Shown here in pieces: positions 1,461 through 8,164 of a DNA stretch of 64,000 nt. The notes under the pieces are model-generated. The model made no database searches. It was not told the origin of the DNA and saw only the letters and a list, made by a program, of their open reading frames with translations. The position numbers and the translations under genes were made by a program. Position 1 is the stretch's first letter, and each line of letters starts with the position of its first letter. The DNA comes from Gimesia alba. Its GTDB lineage: Bacteria; Planctomycetota; Planctomycetia; Planctomycetales; Planctomycetaceae. The DNA lies in NCBI RefSeq assembly GCF_007744675.1, contig NZ_CP036269.1, positions 248,001 through 312,000 of the forward strand. Direction: 5' to 3'.

Positions 1461-2177
1461 TCAGTTTTTGTCAGTCTGCTTTTTCTTTAACGCAGCTTTG
1501 ATCTCGTTGGCAACCTGTTTTGCAAGTTGGGCCGAGCCTGCTTTTTTAAAGTGCACGTTGCCTGGTCCGGTCCAGAGCGCGGCGTCAAATCCGGATGCGA
1601 GTTTGTGCAGATCATTGATCCTGACGCCGTGTTGTTTCATGATTTTTTCGGCGACGGCGTTGTACTTCAAGTCGTCGCCAACGACGCGACCTGCTTCCCC
1701 TTCAGGCACCGGGGTTGTGGTGGCCCAGACCAGCGTCGCGCCGGTTTTTTCGAGTTGTTGCACTAACGCTTCCAGATTTTTCTCGTATTCTTTTAAGGGG
1801 ACGGCGATGGTGCCATTCACCTTGTCGCGGTGTCCCTGGACTTTCGAATCCGGGTGCCGATAGCAGAGGTCGTGCAAGCCCCAGTTGAAATGAATCACGT
1901 CCCAGTCCGTCTTTCCCAGCCAGCGTTTGAGGTTTTGTTTCCCCCGGTTCGTATCGCCGCAATTCGCTTTCACGCGTTCTACATTCGCGACGCCTTGAAG
2001 TAACTCGATGGTGGGTTTCGTGTACCCGATCGAAATCGAGTCACCAATGATCAGAACGTGTGGCAGGTTGGGATCAGCTTTGGTGGTTTGCTTCTCCTGG
2101 GCTGTGACGATGGAAGTCAAGCACAGGAGCATGAGGGACGCTGTTTGAAGTCTGACGTATTTATTTAGTCGATTCAT
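1461..2177 (-). CDS. Secreted SGNH/GDSL hydrolase
   Basis: 238 residues. A signal peptide ends near residue 26 (LTSIVTAQ). Block I IIGDSISIGYT carries the putative nucleophile Ser47; the block II Gly lies in CGDTNRG (about 73-79); block III is represented by FNWGLHD with Asn98; block V His209 lies in GPGNVHF. These match SGNH esterases. The usual Asp three residues before the catalytic His is Gly here, so the triad may be a dyad or use another acid. It probably acts on acyl esters of polysaccharides outside the cytoplasm and is likely cotranscribed with the esterase downstream. Confidence 0.85.
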   Translation of the reverse strand: MNRLNKYVRLQTASLMLLCLTSIVTAQEKQTTKADPNLPHVLIIGDSISIGYTKPTIELLQGVANVERVKANCGDTNRGKQNLKRWLGKTDWDVIHFNWGLHDLCYRHPDSKVQGHRDKVNGTIAVPLKEYEKNLEALVQQLEKTGATLVWATTTPVPEGEAGRVVGDDLKYNAVAEKIMKQHGVRINDLHKLASGFDAALWTGPGNVHFKKAGSAQLAKQVANEIKAALKKKQTDKN

Positions 2178-2267: not shown

Positions 2268-2798
2268 TCAATGATCTTCATCAGTCCGCCGGAGAAATAT
2301 GGCTCGTCTCACTGGGACTCCAGATGAATTCCGTCCGAAGACCTGAATTCCCCGAAATCTTTGATTGTTGATGACTAGATCTGTAACCCAGTGAATTCTG
2401 AACCAACAATTGTGGATTCGGAAATTCAACCAGTTATGCTCTGACTTTAAGTAACCTTGAACGCGACGCTGTTTCAAGAATTTACAGAATTGTTGCGCAT
2501 CCAGTTCATGTTTATGGTGAGTTTCCGGCCACTTCGCATGTTCCACATATTCTTGAAACTGATTGATGGCATCTCGACCAAGGCTACTCCAGGTTTGTGG
2601 AATGATATGAGCTACCTGAGATCGCCGTTTGCTGAGAAGTGCTTCTGCCTGACGGTCTAATTGATCGCAATCGAGTGAGGCGATGATCTTTGCTTCCTCG
2701 TCCGAAAGTCCCTGTTTGGTGATGAATGCGGAGACGTTTGAGCGTAACTGGTCGCGCAGGATCTGATTCTGTAAAAGAAGTGCGAGAACTCTAATCAT
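2268..2798 (-). CDS. BufC/HvfC-like (DUF2063-type) partner of the DUF692 enzyme
   Basis: 176 residues if started at the ATG at 2798, which lies in ATGATTAG and overlaps the DUF692 stop by 8 nt. This is a strong sign of translational coupling; a longer open frame back to 2882 only shadows the DUF692 gene. The central part has the family-like pattern L-x-KR-x(2)-V-x(3)-IP-x-T-x(2)-LG, then F-x-EY-x-H-x(2)-WPE and H-x(2)-DA-x-F-x(2)-FL, resembling proteins that dock the substrate peptide to MNIO enzymes. No signal peptide or membrane segment is visible, so it should be cytoplasmic. The resemblance is from memory of the family and no search was run. The role in substrate recognition is inferred from context. 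Confidence 0.65.
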   Translation of the reverse strand: MIRVLALLLQNQILRDQLRSNVSAFITKQGLSDEEAKIIASLDCDQLDRQAEALLSKRRSQVAHIIPQTWSSLGRDAINQFQEYVEHAKWPETHHKHELDAQQFCKFLKQRRVQGYLKSEHNWLNFRIHNCWFRIHWVTDLVINNQRFRGIQVFGRNSSGVPVRRAIFLRRTDEDH

Positions 2799-3600
2799 TT
2801 CGGGCGCGCTCACAGGTTTCTTCCAGACGAAGCAATTCCGCTGACAGATCCGTTGGTGCTGGAATTGCCATGTCTCGTTCAAGTATGACTGCTTCTACTG
2901 GCGCATAGCGCACGACCTCGCTGAGAAGATCGTAAAGATTGTCTTGAATCGGTTCACAATGACGATCGTGATAAATGCCATTCTGGATCGAATAGCCGAC
3001 GATATGCACCTGTCGAATGAAGTCCGGCTCGACTTCATGTAACCATTTGACTGGATCAAAACAATGGTTTTGACCGTTGATCAACAGATTGGTGACATCC
3101 AGGAGCAGCCCACTCCCGGCTCGCTCGCATAGACGGTTCAGGAATTCCGGCTCAGTATAATCTCCAGGAATTCGCAGGTACGATGTGATATTCTCTAAGA
3201 GCAAAGGCCTTTGACAGCGGTCCATGACTTCACGCGCATGGTCGGCCAGGATGGTTAAAGAACTTTCCGTCATCGGCAATGGATTGAGGTGCCCCAGGTC
3301 AACGTCGTCAGTCTTCGTAAAGGCGATATGCTCGGTGATCCATTTTGCATTGGCGTGGTCAGCAACTCTCTGAAATTGTCTCAATGTTGAGTTATCAAGC
3401 GGACCGGGAGTTCCCAGGGAGAGTCCCAGACCATGGACAGAGACCAGGTAGTCTTTGGCAAGTTGTGACAGAGTTGATGTGTCAGAATCGAAGAAATGTT
3501 CGGCTGTGACTTCAACGCAATCCAGTTCTATCGGGTCCGACAGTACCCAGTCCGCTAATGGCTTACGAAATCCGACTCCAATCAGAGGGACCTCGATCAT
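2791..3600 (-). CDS. DUF692 / MNIO-family (BufB/MbnB-like) iron enzyme
   Basis: 269 residues from the ATG at 3600. The start is set by a strong GGAGGTGA ribosome site that lies inside the last codons of the upstream gene; a longer open frame to 3747 would encode only the low-complexity shadow of the Cys tail. Family landmarks in order: GVGFRKPLADW, VEVTAEHFFD, VHGLGLSLGTPG, ITEHIAF, LLENITSY, GLLLDVTNLLINGQN, QVHIVGYS, HDRHCEP and ILERDMAIP. These contain the His/Glu/Asp residues that hold the two or three irons of the TIM-barrel MNIO enzymes, which oxidise cysteines in peptide substrates. Context makes the Cys tail of the preceding gene the natural substrate (inference). Confidence 0.85.
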   Translation of the reverse strand: MIEVPLIGVGFRKPLADWVLSDPIELDCVEVTAEHFFDSDTSTLSQLAKDYLVSVHGLGLSLGTPGPLDNSTLRQFQRVADHANAKWITEHIAFTKTDDVDLGHLNPLPMTESSLTILADHAREVMDRCQRPLLLENITSYLRIPGDYTEPEFLNRLCERAGSGLLLDVTNLLINGQNHCFDPVKWLHEVEPDFIRQVHIVGYSIQNGIYHDRHCEPIQDNLYDLLSEVVRYAPVEAVILERDMAIPAPTDLSAELLRLEETCERARND

Positions 3601-3610
3601 TTCGTTGTTG

Positions 3611-4366
3611 TCAGTCACCTCCACAGCCTCCGCATCCACCACCGCCACAGCCTCCCCCACAGCTGCTACCGCAACTGCTGCCACAGCTGCTGCCGCAACT
3701 GCTGCATCCACTATTCGACCAATGATTCGATTTCCCAGAGCCGGCATAAGAGAAGATCAGGAAGACGAATGGTCCAAACAACATCATCCCAAAAAGTCCA
3801 CCAAATTTGTGCATACCGTGGTAGCTCCCATACCCAAGTCGAATTAAAGCGGTACTCTCGTAAGCCAGGATGAAAACAAGCAGCAGGCCCGGAGTGAGCT
3901 GTGATTTCAGTCTCACATAGATACACAAAACGGCAATTCCCACTCCCAGAAAAAAGAAATATAGTAGAAAAGTCTCCCCGTTCCACCCTATTTGTAAGAT
4001 ACTGATGCCGATCACGAGAACAGAACAAAGTACGATCCAGGTTCGCATGATTGGGTCTTGGGGCAAAAGATTGATGAACGAAGCCCCGATGAGACTGAGT
4101 CTGCCTGGCTCCTTTGCCGGAGGTTGTGGTTCGGGGTGCTCGTCTTTATTTTTAGCGTTACAGACGACACAAACGGGATTTTTCCGGTCTAATTTCGAAA
4201 AACAGACAGAGCACCACTTAGGATTATTTGAGGCCCGGCGTTCGAGCAGTAAATCTTCTTTGCAGTTGCGACACTTGACTTGCTTACCTTCGAGGTCAGC
4301 ACGAACGAGATATTTTTTACCACACTTGCAGGTCACTTTGAACTTTGCCGAAGTGGTTTTGCTCAT
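3611..4366 (-). CDS. Four-TM zinc-ribbon membrane protein with Gly/Ser/Cys-rich C-terminal tail (putative modified tail)
   Basis: 251 residues. Two N-terminal Cys pairs sets (C13, C15, C32, C35 and C52, C55, C66, C69) look like zinc ribbons. Four hydrophobic helices follow at about 109-127, 132-152, 159-178 and 188-207. Residues 221-251 are almost only Gly, Ser and Cys with eight Cys spaced C-x2-C-x3-C-x3-C-x3-C-x3-C-x4-C-x2-C, ending GGCGGD. This architecture recalls TIGR04222-type membrane proteins with low-complexity Gly-Cys ends, but the zinc-ribbon front is different. Its ATG overlaps the upstream stop (ATGA) and DUF692 starts 10 bp downstream, so the tail is the likely target of that enzyme. 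I do not know a characterised homologue. Confidence 0.8.
   Translation of the reverse strand: MSKTTSAKFKVTCKCGKKYLVRADLEGKQVKCRNCKEDLLLERRASNNPKWCSVCFSKLDRKNPVCVVCNAKNKDEHPEPQPPAKEPGRLSLIGASFINLLPQDPIMRTWIVLCSVLVIGISILQIGWNGETFLLYFFFLGVGIAVLCIYVRLKSQLTPGLLLVFILAYESTALIRLGYGSYHGMHKFGGLFGMMLFGPFVFLIFSYAGSGKSNHWSNSGCSSCGSSCGSSCGSSCGGGCGGGGCGGCGGD
3614..3706 (-). other. Eight-cysteine Gly/Ser/Cys tail segment
   Basis: Codes residues 221-251 of the four-TM protein. It is built from CGSS repeats followed by CGGG/CGG units. Serine and glycine codons vary between units (agc/agt, ggc/ggt/gga), so the repeat has been kept at protein level and is not a simple recent DNA expansion. Confidence 0.85.
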
Positions 4367-5124
4367 TGTGTTGCCTCCATTTGGTCGACCAAATGCGTGG
4401 TTTCATGGATCAGGGACATAAAACCGCTATAGATTTTCTTTAGTTCTTCTGACGAAGGCATCTGCTGCAATCTGCGGAATTCAAGGATCTTCCTGATTAC
4501 CGCGACATCGATTTGAAATTCATCACCAAACTCATCCAGAACGTCACTGTCCTCTTCTGGAACGATACCCGTCTTGACCAGCAGGCAGGCATTCACATTG
4601 TTGAGAAAAGAATTTGCAGTCTCCAACAACGTCTGCAGCAACTGTTCTGGTTTATGCCGTCGATGCAAGTAAATAGTACGAAGCCGGATCATGATATTTT
4701 TTAATTCCTGTTCGCACCGTAATCGTAAATGCTCATCTGAGATGTCAAGATCAGAGATCACGTCTTGTCCATGTAACAAGGTGTGATACTGCTTGATATT
4801 GTGAAACTTGACCGGGAAGACGTCACAGGAAGAGATTAAATCATCCTGGGTCAGAATCATGGTCGCGAGTGGAACTTGCTTTTCGAATTTAGCAATTGCA
4901 TCAGCGATGCTATCCAGCAAGTCACAGTCAATCCGATTCAGGACCAGCATCAGGTTGAGTTTACTATGTTTCGAGTCAAACTGCTGCTGTTTGACAAAAT
5001 CGCCAAAAACGATTACGGACGTCAGTTCATTAGCTAGCGTAGTGGTAAGCACGTCTCGCAATTCATGCAGGATTTTAACGATGCATGAGTGATCAAGAGT
5101 ACGATGACGTGAAAAAAAATTCAT
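4363..5124 (-). CDS. Degenerate nucleotidyltransferase-like protein, first gene of the DUF692 operon
   Basis: 253 residues; ATG at 5124 preceded by AAGGA with 7-nt spacing. Residues 37-62 (VIVFGDFVKQQQFD then KLNLMLVL) resemble the Gly-Ser and Asp-x-Asp strand of minimal nucleotidyltransferases, but the usual GS is GD and the D-x-D pair reads N-L/L-x, so catalysis is doubtful. The rest is helical with charged segments, like NTase-HEPN fusions. The last codons overlap the next start by 4 nt (ATGA), so it is cotranslated with the Cys-tail membrane protein. The function is unknown; a regulatory or ligand-sensing role in the operon is a guess. Confidence 0.7.
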   Translation of the reverse strand: MNFFSRHRTLDHSCIVKILHELRDVLTTTLANELTSVIVFGDFVKQQQFDSKHSKLNLMLVLNRIDCDLLDSIADAIAKFEKQVPLATMILTQDDLISSCDVFPVKFHNIKQYHTLLHGQDVISDLDISDEHLRLRCEQELKNIMIRLRTIYLHRRHKPEQLLQTLLETANSFLNNVNACLLVKTGIVPEEDSDVLDEFGDEFQIDVAVIRKILEFRRLQQMPSSEELKKIYSGFMSLIHETTHLVDQMEATQ

Positions 5125-5595: not shown

Positions 5596-5666
5596 GCCTT
5601 GCGAGTGTGATGGAGGCACGATGGTCTTCGAAACCATCAGACGGGGTTCGACTCCCTGGCGAGGTA
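5596..5666 (+). tRNA. tRNA-Arg(UCG)
   Basis: Full cloverleaf by hand. The acceptor 5596-5602 pairs with 5659-5665 (two G-U pairs). The D stem is GTGT/GCAC. The anticodon stem ATGGT/ACCAT has loop CTTCGAA at 5626-5632 giving anticodon TCG. The T arm is CGGGG-TTCGACT-CCCTG. The discriminator is A and no CCA is encoded. It could be a working tRNA or a tRNA mimic, given the Ro60/Y RNA context. Confidence 0.7.
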
Positions 5667-5679
5667 CTGAAAATAATTT

Positions 5680-5752
5680 GTCCCTGGAGTGTGCCGGATT
5701 CGCACGCGAGCCCGCGAAGCTCGTAGATCAGGTTCAATTCCTGACAGGGGCA
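5680..5752 (+). tRNA. tRNA or tRNA mimic with anticodon GCG (Arg) and an unusual C33
   Basis: The acceptor GTCCCTG (5680-5686) pairs with CAGGGGC (5745-5751). The anticodon stem CGAGC/GCTCG encloses loop CCGCGAA (5712-5718), giving GCG at 5714-5716. The universally conserved U33 is C. The T arm is TCAGG-TTCAATT-CCTGA, perfectly paired. The D stem reuses GTGT/GCAC as in the first tRNA. No CCA is encoded. The fold is good, but C33 makes decoding uncertain. Confidence 0.55.
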
Positions 5753-5758
5753 TTGACT

Positions 5759-5830
5759 GACGCCGGAACCTGATGGTCGGGCGGCTGCCTGCAAAGCAGT
5801 TGGAACTGGGTTCGACTCCCACTGGCGTCT
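5759..5830 (+). tRNA. tRNA-Cys(GCA)
   Basis: The acceptor GACGCCG (5759-5765) pairs with TGGCGTC (5823-5829). The anticodon stem GCTGC/GCAGT has loop CTGCAAA with anticodon GCA at 5791-5793. The T arm is CTGGG-TTCGACT-CCCAC with one mismatch at the base. The discriminator is U, as expected for tRNA-Cys. The D arm is short and irregular. It starts 7 bp after the previous tRNA, so the three are surely one transcript. Confidence 0.65.
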
Positions 5831-5922
5831 TCAACCGACCAACTGCAGGCTCGGACTACATCTTATTATCACTAAGAACCCGTGTCTGAGCAAATCTTTC
5901 GTTGGAAGGTTGTTTAAAATAG

Positions 5923-5939
5923 CCCAACAGTCTGTTGGG
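5923..5939 (+). repeat. Short hairpin between tRNA trio and Y RNAs
   Basis: CCCAACA (5923-5929) pairs with TGTTGGG (5933-5939) across a 3-nt loop. No T tract follows, so it is not a classic terminator; it may be a processing site. The rest of 5831-5955 shows nothing recognisable. Confidence 0.35.
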
Positions 5940-5955
5940 ATAACATGATCACTTT

Positions 5956-6109
5956 AAAACGTGACCGACTGCCTTACTGGAGTACATGGATCATACCCCG
6001 GTGGTTGTGGGTTCGAGTCCCACCGGCGCTATTTTGTAAAGCGTGTCGCGCCGTAGCTCAAAGGTAGAGCACCGTAAGTCTCTGGTACAACACTTCGTCG
6101 GTCTGTTTT
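5956..6109 (+). ncRNA. Y RNA 1 (YrlA-like, tRNA-like module)
   Basis: The ends pair: AAAAC-GT-GACCGAC (5956-5969) with GTCGGTC-T-GTTTT (6097-6109). Just inside are CGACTGCC on the 5' side and ACACTTCGTCG on the 3' side, shared with two neighbours. The interior is a permuted tRNA: T arm GTGGG-TTCGAGT-CCCAC, then an acceptor-like stem CGGCGC/GCGCCG closed by an 18-nt loop, then D arm TAGCTC...GAGCA. This is the plan of bacterial Y RNAs, which bind Ro60 through the end stem and mimic tRNA. The U run after the stem may terminate transcription. The Ro60 gene lies downstream on the same strand. Confidence 0.8.
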
Positions 6110-6159
6110 AAAATTGAATATCGACTTTCTGAGAGGATGACCACGTCACAAGAAAAAAC

Positions 6160-6308
6160 AAGATCGACTGCCGAATGGGAGTACATAGGGAACCAAAGGT
6201 TGTGGGTTCAATTCCCACCAGCGCTTCATGTTTAAGCATGTCGCGTTGTAGCTCAACTGGCAGAGCATTGGCAAAAAAACTCTGGTTCAACAACTTCGTC
6301 GATCTTTT
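6160..6308 (+). ncRNA. Y RNA 2 (YrlA-like, tRNA-like module)
   Basis: The end stem AAGATCGAC (6160-6168) pairs with GTCGATCTT (6298-6306). Relative to Y RNA 1, paired positions change together (GACC/GGTC to GATC/GATC), so the stem is supported by covariation. The T arm is GTGGG-TTCAATT-CCCAC; the acceptor-like stem CAGCGC/GCGTTG shows further compensation; the D arm is TAGCTC-AACTGGCA-GAGCA. The conserved CGACTGCC and CAACTTCGTCG blocks flank it. The U tract follows at 6305-6308. Confidence 0.8.
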
Positions 6309-6319
6309 ATAAGGCAACA

Positions 6320-6464
6320 CACTCGACTGCCGGCGTGGAGTACATGGTTTAAGCTGGTTCGATCCCTGCCCGGCCGCCTGATGTAATGCTGTATGCGGCC
6401 GGCCCCTGCGATCCGCGCGTGCGCGACGTCACAGGGAAAACTCTGCCCACCACTTCGTCGAGTG
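6320..6464 (+). ncRNA. Y RNA 3 (divergent tRNA-like module)
   Basis: The end stem CACTCGAC (6320-6327) pairs with GTCGAGTG (6457-6464), a third covarying version. It keeps CGACTGCC, TGGAGTACATGG and CCACTTCGTCG. The T arm is weak (TTCGATC loop) and the acceptor-like stem is a strong CCGGCCGC/GCGGCCGG hairpin. The TAGCTC...GAGC D arm of the other two is absent and replaced by a CCCTG...CAGGG stem capped by GCGCGTGCGC. It is probably a Y RNA with a different effector module. Confidence 0.7.
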
Positions 6465-6481
6465 CATTTGTTGGGTCATTA

Positions 6482-6525
6482 AAGGGGTCTGGTCTCCTTT
6501 AAAAAGAGACCAGTCTCCTTTAATA
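6482..6525 (+). promoter_or_regulatory. Leader hairpin upstream of the Ro60 gene
   Basis: CTGGTCTC (6489-6496) and GAGACCAG (6506-6513) form a perfect 8-bp stem. The segment TCTCCTTTAA occurs twice around it and could also pair with the AAGGAGG ribosome site at 6542-6548. It might therefore be an attenuator or translational switch. It also resembles, imperfectly, the AAAGGGGTC-type inverted repeats that flank the Y1 transposase near 22.5 kb, so it may instead be a REP relic. Confidence 0.4.
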
Positions 6526-6553
6526 CACACCTTTATTTTGGAAGGAGGTCATG

Positions 6554-8164
6554 ATGGCCAACAAAACTTTATTTTCCAGTCGTAACAGTAAATTACCACG
6601 TACCGATTCGTTTAACGAAGCAGGAGGCCGTGCGTACCAGTTGGCGCCGAAGCAGGCACTGGCGCAGATGGCAGCAACCGGTTGCTTCAACGGTGTGTTC
6701 TACGCGAGCGCGAAGGATCAACTCGATACGATGCGCAAGCTGATCGATCAGATCGACGACAATCGCTATCTGGCGCAGCTGGCGGTTTATGCGCGAGAGC
6801 GTGCTTTCATGAAAGACATGCCGGCGGCGCTGCTGGTGGTTCTGTCCAAGCGGGATACCGAATTGATGCACCGTGTGTTCGATCGGGTGGTCGACAATGG
6901 TCGCGTGCTGCGCACCATGTTCCAGATGATCCGTTCGGGACAGTTTGGTCGTACGAGTCTGTCGTCCAGTCTGCAGCGTGCGTACCAGCGCTGGTTGAAC
7001 GAAGCGTCGGTAGGCAAGTTGCTCTCGGCTTCGATCGGCAACGATCCGAGTCTGCGCGACGTACTGCGAATGGCGCGACCTACGCCAAAGGACAACGCAC
7101 GACGTGCGCTCTTCGGTTGGTTGACGGGTAAGGAGCTGGAAAAGTGGGCTCCTGCGACGGCAGCCGACTTACCGCGACAGGTACAGGCGCTGATCGCGTT
7201 TCGTCAGGCAGAAACCGATGCAGCACAGGCGGAGATTGTGAAAGATCTGTCCGTGCGTTGGGATCTGCTGGCGGATGCAGCCAAAGGGCCGCTGACCTGG
7301 AAGGCGATCGCCCGCCAGATGGGACCGCAGGCACTGCGAATGAACCTCAACACGCTGCTGCGTCACGAGGTATTCAACGACAGTGTGCTGGTAGATTACG
7401 TGGCCGATCGACTGGCGGATGAAGACGAAATCCGTCGTTCGCGGCAGTTTCCTTACCAGTACCTGGCGGCGTATCTGAACGTGGCTCCGGTAATTTCGCA
7501 CAAGATCAAGGCGGCGCTGCATGCCGCAGCCGAGATCGCCTGCGGGAACGTGCCGGAGTTGACGGGGCCTGTGGTCATCGGTCTGGATACGTCCGGTTCG
7601 ATGAGTAGTTCCGTGACCGGTTGGCAGGCCCGTGGTGCGTCGAGCAAGATGCGCTGTGTGGATGCGGCAGCGCTGTTTGCGGCAGCGATTCTGCGGCGTA
7701 ACCCGGACAGCGTGGTGATTCCGTTCGATACCCGTGCTTACGATGCACGCTTTGATGCGTCCGACTCAATTCTGAGTCTGTCAGAGCGGTTGGCGAAGTA
7801 CGGCGGCGGTGGAACCGACTGTTCGGTTCCGCTTCGCGAAGCCAACGCACGACTGTGCAACCGCGCGTTTGCCGGCTGTGTGCTGGTGAGCGATAACGAG
7901 AGCTGGGTCGGCGCGGGCCGCCGTGGTGCGACCGGCGTGATGTCCGAATGGCAGACGTTCGTGAAGAACCAGAAACGGCTCGGCGTGACCGATCCGAAAC
8001 TGGTTTGTATCGACATCCAGCCATACGGTTCATCACAGGCTCCCGAGCGGGGCGACATCCTGAACATCGGCGGCTTCAGTGACGCGGTGTTCAACGTGGT
8101 TTCCTCGTTTGTTGGGAACGATGCCAGCCGGTTCGTGGCGGAGATCGAATCGATCGCAGTCTGA
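6554..8164 (+). CDS. rsr: Ro60 orthologue (TROVE domain + vWA), RNA-binding ring protein
   Basis: 536 residues from the ATG at 6554. That start is chosen because AAGGAGG at 6542-6548 sits at proper spacing; an ATG three bases earlier would be too close. The N-terminal two thirds is a helical TROVE domain ([18 protein letters not shown]..., [31 protein letters not shown]). The C-terminal part is a von Willebrand A fold with MIDAS motif DTSGS at about 345-349. Ro60 rings bind Y RNAs on the outside and misfolded RNAs in the central hole, working in RNA quality control with exonucleases. Three Y RNAs lie directly upstream on the same strand. No RtcB/RtcA repair genes are seen nearby. Confidence 0.92.

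Follow-up and report, generated by a model that had tools for sequence, protein, structure and literature searches.

Within a 64 kb stretch of the Gimesia alba genome (NZ_CP036269.1, positions 248,001-312,000, forward strand; genome size 7.77 Mb), hereafter the window, we find a four-gene operon in which an MNIO (MbnB_TglH_ChrH family, formerly DUF692) is encoded directly after a membrane protein that ends in a Cys-rich Gly/Ser/Cys tail. The four genes are a genuine, conserved and tightly coupled minus-strand module, and the tail appears likely to be the substrate of the MNIO. We tentatively propose that the operon makes a membrane-tethered product by oxidizing this tail in place, with the first gene serving as a helper. 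The genes are, in order:

4363..5124, minus strand: gene 1, 253 residues, nucleotidyltransferase-like N-terminal domain and HEPN-like helical C-terminal domain (AlphaFold, structure comparison)
3611..4366, minus strand: gene 2, membrane protein of 251 residues and putative substrate (open reading frame, profile match at MNIO loci)
2791..3600, minus strand: gene 3, MNIO (PF05114)
2268..2813, minus strand: gene 4, MNIO partner protein resembling PME-type 2, with a probable GTG start at 2813 (AlphaFold, structure match)

A sequence-only reading of this DNA had described four genes that overlap or nearly touch, and the open reading frame coordinates bear this out. Genes 1 and 2 overlap in an ATGA; the ATG of gene 3 follows gene 2 after a ten-base gap, GGAGGTGA falling within the final tail codons; and genes 3 and 4 overlap. 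Of that anatomy only the start of gene 4 would be moved, from the ATG in ATGATTAG to the GTG at 2813, which is favoured because several homologues start VSxxx or VNxxx.

Conservation of the operon

A scan of the genome collection with the MNIO alignment alone yielded 36 loci (designated, like genomes, by our own L and G numbers), six of which are contigs already in that alignment. By label they come from planctomycete and verrucomicrobial genomes and from a few metagenome-assembled genomes assigned to Gamma- or Alphaproteobacteria. Among the 31 loci with more than 1 kb of upstream sequence, gene 1 is present in 27 (missing from L105, L107, L113 and L117) and the gene 2 profile matches in 29 (all but L105 and L113), while gene 4 is found at 34 of the 35 loci with downstream sequence. 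Iteration of the gene 2 profile drew on these same loci and took in the tail; at L108 and L112 the match is weak or owed to the tail. The spread is patchy: two of the 11 genomes listed for the genus have the module, and seven of 150 genomes in the family, the window's own included, encode an MNIO of at least 50% identity to that of the window.

The MNIO and its partner protein

Gene 3 matches PF05114 at 232.5 bits (E 6.5e-69; curated cut-off 25 bits), so that its earlier assignment to DUF692 stands. It falls under the cut-offs of the BufB, HvfB, ApyH, ChrH and MbnB models, the best-scoring being BufB with 203.8 bits against a cut-off of 310. The candidate metal ligands are H56, H91, E136, D168, N171, H199, D212, H214 and E241. 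Loss of these ligands had been named beforehand as a result that would count against the reading, and each of the nine positions is conserved in at least 35 of 38 alignment rows; the departures are L115, L117 and L118, where the MNIO frame is cut short, and a D168N replacement in L108. These positions align with 3bww, TglH and MbnB; the residue equivalence is our own reading of the alignment. The ligand roles are taken in part from the available text of PMC13419390. Gene 3 is, judging from its sequence, an MNIO with intact ligands, for which iron-dependent oxidation is predicted.

In a tree of 54 MNIO rows, from which six duplicate contigs and four partial loci were excluded, the window-type enzymes form one group (support 100/100), with three enzymes from TIGR04222-type loci as a weakly supported sister (81/38); L080 is a long branch. 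The window's genome also encodes another MNIO, distant in sequence (31% identity), next to a small Cys-rich protein. This locus (L001, 503-2973) contains, by eye, a precursor-like protein and a downstream gene that is maybe the partner of the second MNIO, and it looks like a separate bufferin/oxazolin-like cluster.

Gene 4 had been likened to BufC. It has no DUF2063 or BufC signature and no family match in Pfam or NCBIfam, and DUF2063 is not among the families matched by 33 homologues; the only sequence matches are weak ones of LigA/SonA and Os1348 type in the first ~50 residues. Because these matches are so weak we turned to structure. The AlphaFold model built from 33 sequences (predicted local distance difference test, pLDDT, 94.8) has as its top Foldseek match 8hi7_A (probability 1.00, TM-score 0.71, E 2.3e-3), the non-MNIO chain of TglHI. 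In VIA-align comparisons the same chain A (8hci/8hi7) scores Z 9.7 over 170-171 aligned residues (root-mean-square deviation 3.6) and NGO1945 (3dee) scores Z 8.3 over 120, followed by chain C of two MbnABC complexes (Z 6.3 and 6.2), which we take to be MbnC. The top five rows are all MNIO partners, with Os1348 next at Z 5.0 and unrelated proteins from Z 4.0 down; failure to match in either program was not taken as evidence. The assignment rests on TglI and NGO1945, because Z scores below 8 may reflect no more than a common arrangement. From its place after the MNIO, the missing DUF2063 and the likeness to TglI and NGO1945, the gene 4 model therefore fits the PME-type 2 class as described in the available text of Antoine 2025 (PMC12452194). 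The proposed likeness to BufC thus holds at the level of structure and not as a sequence signature.

A Cys-rich tail on changing anchors

Gene 2 has the following parts:

4262..4330, minus strand: putative zinc ribbon 1 (C13, C15, C32, C35; from sequence)
4160..4213, minus strand: putative zinc ribbon 2 (C52, C55, C66, C69; from sequence)
3749..4051, minus strand: transmembrane region, residues 106-206, four hydrophobic segments (Kyte-Doolittle)
3614..3721, minus strand: Gly/Ser/Cys tail of 36 residues with eight Cys, ending CGGCGGD (from sequence)

The eight tail Cys, as described earlier, are indeed regularly placed, at intervals of 3 to 5 residues. The CGGCGG codon pattern occurs at one site in the window (0 in 100 shuffles) and at one site in the whole genome, the gene 2 tail, but since the reversed control pattern was also matched once this uniqueness alone is no statistical test. 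Searching both strands of the 36 MNIO loci revealed 31 Cys-tailed open reading frames, of which 30 adjoin the MNIO (29 picked out by script and L101 on inspection) and the remaining one lies in L090; none was found at 16 control loci of the other common local MNIO type, each reaching only ~1.5 kb either way. The automatic test overlooked short or Cys-poor tails (L071/L091, L088, L112, L113), a tail masked by a wrong start (L101) and another broken by a stop (L115). Homologues without tail Cys, which the sequence-only reading had also named as damaging, are mostly not what is found: among the 31 loci with upstream sequence an open-frame tail with at least three Cys is absent only at L105 (no tail gene), L113 (two Cys) and L115 (tail behind the stop). 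Across phyla, 30 of the 34 tails listed carry the terminal CGGC motif; the list omits L113, L115 and the first open reading frame of L108.

The part of the protein that precedes the tail varies widely, including anchors with one transmembrane segment (TM), three TM, four TM plus zinc ribbons, and six to seven TM. Cys pairs like those of the putative zinc ribbons are present in most planctomycete homologues in the alignment; most verrucomicrobial versions are short (141-154 residues from a plausible start) and have no zinc ribbon. At L112 and L113 the protein has a single TM, with an eight-Cys tail and one intervening gene before the MNIO in the former and a two-Cys tail and two intervening genes in the latter. 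Two tandem copies are present at several loci. Because the anchor varies while the tail persists, we regard the tail as the likely substrate of the MNIO, a conclusion that comes from comparing sequences.

Three observations made on these loci can be added. At both L112 (7354-7962) and L113 (7449-7973) a lipoprotein-like gene sits immediately before the MNIO, and the two are related (26% identity over 107 columns, E 7e-09). At L113 an ion-channel gene lies before the MNIO as well. In L090 (1401-2597, minus strand) a protein of 398 residues with apparently no TM ends in GGGCGGGCGGCGGGD, some 2.6 kb from an operon of the same kind, and is possibly a second substrate in trans.

Remote likeness of gene 2 to TIGR04222 proteins

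Gene 2 has no match in Pfam or NCBIfam. The sequence-only reading had brought up TIGR04222-type proteins; neither gene 2 nor eight relatives, including L112, L086 and L107, match the TIGR04222 model (cut-off 43 bits). The last three of its four hydrophobic segments form a conserved core with the motif GPxFLxxY ... FExxGxxRxxxGxxxGMHxFxxLxxMM, which we compared by hhalign with planctomycete TIGR04222 proteins after removal of the tails. Against nine such proteins TM1 gave a probability of 90.5% (best of 30 shuffles 6.3%) and TM2-TM3 gave 73.8% (best of 60 shuffles 1.7%). Because the GPxFLxxY motif had played a part in choosing these nine, and this favours TM1, the comparison was repeated with 15 rows chosen without that demand (13 from family genomes plus L080 and L004); the core then reached 93.0% (highest of 60 shuffles 56.3%) and TM2-TM3 by itself 72.4% (highest of 60 shuffles 10.0%). 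The probability exceeds every shuffle in each run, though it is only moderate. We read gene 2 as an apparently stripped-down, remote relative of TIGR04222 proteins that is invisible to the TIGR04222 model.

Searches with the core model recovered two matches in 343 Planctomycetota genomes (the window's own and that of L099, both model rows). In 337 Verrucomicrobiota genomes they recovered the centre genome, itself a row of the model, together with two borderline matches, one to a TIGR04222 protein (L144, 8.6e-4) and one to a protein without a tail. Neither of these two thinly sampled sets yielded a gene 2 core that lacked an MNIO. A single-sequence search with gene 2 matched 28 of 294 genomes, mostly through the zinc-ribbon stretch alone, and was not used for kinship. 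A tail-less zinc-ribbon membrane protein (L069, 11623-12513, the same as L083, 1020-1910) entered by drift of the iterated gene 2 profile and its row was dropped.

Gene 1 accompanies Gly-tailed membrane proteins

The AlphaFold model of gene 1 (pLDDT 91.2) has the fold of the AadA/ANT nucleotidyltransferases (Z 14.7 to AadA), and its residues 132-253 resemble a HEPN toxin (Z 12.8), although this part is a helical bundle and therefore weaker evidence. A GSxVRG motif is retained in many members. Of the DxD/E pair, the second acidic residue is found in 0 of 26 rows with letters at that position and the first in 15 of 26, and the window protein has lost both. Gene 1 is, according to the model, a nucleotidyltransferase/HEPN-like protein without the canonical acidic pair; it shares its predicted fold with AadA/ANT enzymes and HEPN-MNT pairs but differs from them in that loss and in its gene context. 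A defence function was considered on the basis of a single weak PADLOC match (E 0.0024) and rejected, as was a viral function for genes 1 and 4, for which viral Pfam matches are at chance level only.

A gene 1 search of 294 Planctomycetota genomes gave 41 matches in 38 genomes, and we examined the neighbours of the 19 best besides the window (L049-L067) and of two of the 21 weaker ones (L081, L082). For all 19 of these best relatives outside the operon the next downstream gene encodes a membrane protein of the Gly-tailed kind: 16 carry a TPM domain (PF04536 in 16/16), two are TIGR04222 proteins (L058, the same as L080, and L067, which is broken before any tail) and one is a small one-TM Cys-tailed protein (L049). 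By eye, the partners at L081 and L082 are also TPM-like with a Gly tail; at L056 and L060, both TPM cases, the contig stops within or before the tail. Like gene 2, the TPM-domain proteins lie directly downstream of gene 1 homologues and bear a Gly-rich C-terminal tail after a TM; unlike gene 2, none of the 16 has a Cys in its last 60 residues. An MNIO search of the 19 genomes, which had been picked through gene 1, found none in the 16 TPM genomes (four of them below 90% completeness) and one or more in all three others, among which the MNIO adjoins gene 1 only in G065. This pattern suggests that gene 1 belongs to Gly-tailed membrane proteins generally and that the MNIO was added in some lineages with Cys tails. 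Gene 1, previously set aside as an unexplained extra, is thus associated with Gly-tailed membrane proteins in its own right, besides its presence at most of the MNIO loci. No paper on the nucleotidyltransferase/TPM gene pair was among the literature matches listed.

By eye, the TPM proteins downstream of the gene 1 homologues (L049-L067, L079, L081, L082) have Phe/Gly-rich tails, and LemA-like genes come next in some. At L073 (10294-11661, on a contig shared with L116) a transposase-like open reading frame, identified by eye, interrupts gene 1; genes 2-4 remain open.

A proposed mechanism and its alternatives

In the mechanism that we propose, gene 2 would anchor a flexible Gly/Ser/Cys tail at the inner membrane, most likely on its cytosolic face, and the MNIO, held by its partner gene 4, would oxidize the tail Cys in place, probably to thiooxazole- or oxazolone/thioamide-type groups. 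The altered tail could then bind a soft metal such as copper, or act in redox, at the membrane. Gene 1 would assist or regulate the tailed membrane protein from the cytosol and would have no such role in the oxidation chemistry. As a whole this account falls, in our judgement, slightly short of an even chance. Its fullest form, in which the MNIO product is never released and serves as a cytosolic metal or redox patch while a nucleotidyltransferase-derived handler also serves the Cys-free tails of TPM proteins, is a more speculative prospect, distinctly below even.

Several observations weigh against oxidation of the tail. Above the cut-off, TIGR04222 gave 13 matches in the 150 family genomes, 12 of them with 4-8 tail Cys, and five of the 11 TIGR04222 genomes searched for an MNIO have no PF05114 match (G304, G329, G351, G352, G362; 71-99% complete); all five are Cys-tailed, with 5-7 Cys. 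A Cys tail therefore need not come with an MNIO. At L049 (G130) a Cys tail stands beside gene 1 and the MNIOs are on other contigs; L105 has the MNIO and gene 4 with no tail gene within 2.4 kb; and the tail is poor in Cys at L088 (three) as well as at L113, where it is also separated from the enzyme. The available text of Antoine 2025 (PMC12452194) calls the link between TIGR04222 and MNIOs loose. In addition, because most TPM genomes come from one family, relatedness confounds the contrast between TPM and MNIO genomes.

These points lend themselves to an alternative in which the tail stays unmodified and forms a thiol metal-binding, zinc or Fe-S patch, while the MNIO and its partner act on some other, unlinked substrate. 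A precursor unlinked to the operon is conceivable, and the five Cys tails in genomes with no detected MNIO are what this alternative would lead one to expect. Yet the tail gene and the MNIO are almost always adjacent, there is translational coupling, and no MNIO was detected in the 16 genomes where the gene 1 partner has a Cys-free tail. We consider an unmodified tail unlikely, though it deserves serious attention.

A further question for in-place oxidation is the side of the membrane on which it would occur. Zinc ribbons are usually cytosolic, and because four TM would then put both ends of gene 2 inside, we place the tail back in the cytosol. The one-TM versions at L112 and L113 have Lys/Arg between the TM and the tail, and the TPM partners have RRR (13 of 16) or RR (the rest) before theirs. 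In the core alignment the segment preceding the first TM has a mean K+R of 0.43 and the loop after it 1.63, which fits a cytosolic tail; the TM2-TM3 loop, with 2.03 against 1.23 after TM3, does not. The charge rule is therefore not clean, since the TM2-TM3 loop carries no less positive charge than the loops presumed to be cytosolic, and the tails of TIGR04222 proteins were inferred to be periplasmic in the available text of Antoine 2025 (PMC12452194). On balance the gene 2 tail is probably cytosolic.

If the MNIO instead acted before or during membrane insertion, the modified tail would end in the periplasm as a kind of tethered bufferin. Such an outcome would agree with the published TIGR04222 topology (PMC12452194, available text), given the remote likeness of gene 2 to that family, and with the positive TM2-TM3 loop. 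It sits poorly with two cytosol-type zinc ribbons ahead of an even number of TM, with the Lys/Arg before the tail in one-TM members, and with a gene 1 that has no signal peptide by eye and also accompanies TPM proteins, in which an Arg-rich stop-transfer precedes the tail. We regard a periplasmic end point as rather unlikely.

A reading in which gene 1 is a catalytically active nucleotidyltransferase, transferring AMP to the tail protein or to some other partner while the MNIO step is subordinate, is improbable: the fold, the GSxVRG motif kept in many members and best matches to AadA/ANT adenylyltransferases would suit such an activity, but the DxD/E pair is incomplete in every row with letters at its second position and gone altogether in the window protein. 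That the tail is a functionless low-complexity expansion is most improbable, since a difference of one CGSS unit between near-identical neighbours (eight Cys in the window, seven in L068) would be expected of a repeat, but the terminal CGGC recurs across phyla and the tail persists on different anchors.

Should in-place oxidation be correct, a fixed membrane protein would extend the uses of the chemistry known from ribosomally synthesized and post-translationally modified peptides, which would then serve lasting components of the cell envelope as well as metallophores. In the fullest form of the account, MNIO chemistry would have been superimposed on a Gly-tail system of earlier origin. The occurrence of gene 1 beside both Cys-free tails without an MNIO and Cys tails with one offers a ready-made comparison by which the tail hypothesis could be tested.

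Relation to known systems

The sequence-only reading is upheld in that one conserved operon combines an MNIO that keeps its ligands with a structural partner and a membrane protein bearing a Cys tail, but the membrane-bound substrate that it put forward is not unprecedented: in its available text Antoine 2025 (PMC12452194) had already proposed the tails of TIGR04222 proteins as MNIO substrates. The MNIO products named in the available text of that paper and of PMC13419390 are peptides or small proteins. The TIGR04222 clusters described there (PMC12452194) likewise have a membrane protein with a C-terminal Gly/Ser/Cys tail before the MNIO, some with a partner that lacks DUF2063; planctomycete examples (L077, L080) also carry gene 1, and the TM cores are remotely alike. 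Gene 2 differs in having neither the large domain between TM1 and TM2 nor the segment after TM3, in its zinc ribbons in planctomycetes, and in a tail that we argue to be cytosolic.

Gene 2 of the window also fits adjamnio-I in size, Cys count and gene order, as far as these are described in Table 2 of PMC12452194 (122-293 residues, 8-21 Cys, order adjamnio-I - MNIO - PME-type 2), and some members of the gene 2 family may be adjamnio-I. With the bufferins and oxazolins (BufABC, HvfABC) the operon shares an MNIO and partner on a Cys-rich substrate, gene 3 scoring best, below cut-off, with BufB. Gene 2 is however a membrane-embedded putative substrate, starting with the Cys pairs of its putative zinc ribbons where a bufferin has a signal peptide and having about four TM (judged without a signal-peptide program), and gene 4 has no DUF2063 signature. 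New here are the gene 2 variant with its distinct anchor, the arguments for a cytosolic tail and the gene context of gene 1. We found no literature match for an MNIO with a membrane protein in planctomycetes, an absence that is weak because subscription literature was mostly uncovered.

Neighbouring genes

Downstream of the operon on the same strand lies a GDSL-type hydrolase gene (1461-2177, minus strand), which nothing ties to the conserved module. On the other side, the region 5596-8164 contains a gene for a Ro60-like protein (6551-8164, plus strand; TROVE, vWA_Ro60). ARAGORN places three tRNA genes (Arg, Arg, Cys) upstream of this gene, two of which Rfam also identifies, and further degenerate tRNA-like pieces, seen by eye, extend up to ~6400. 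This set could represent Ro-associated tRNA-like RNAs.

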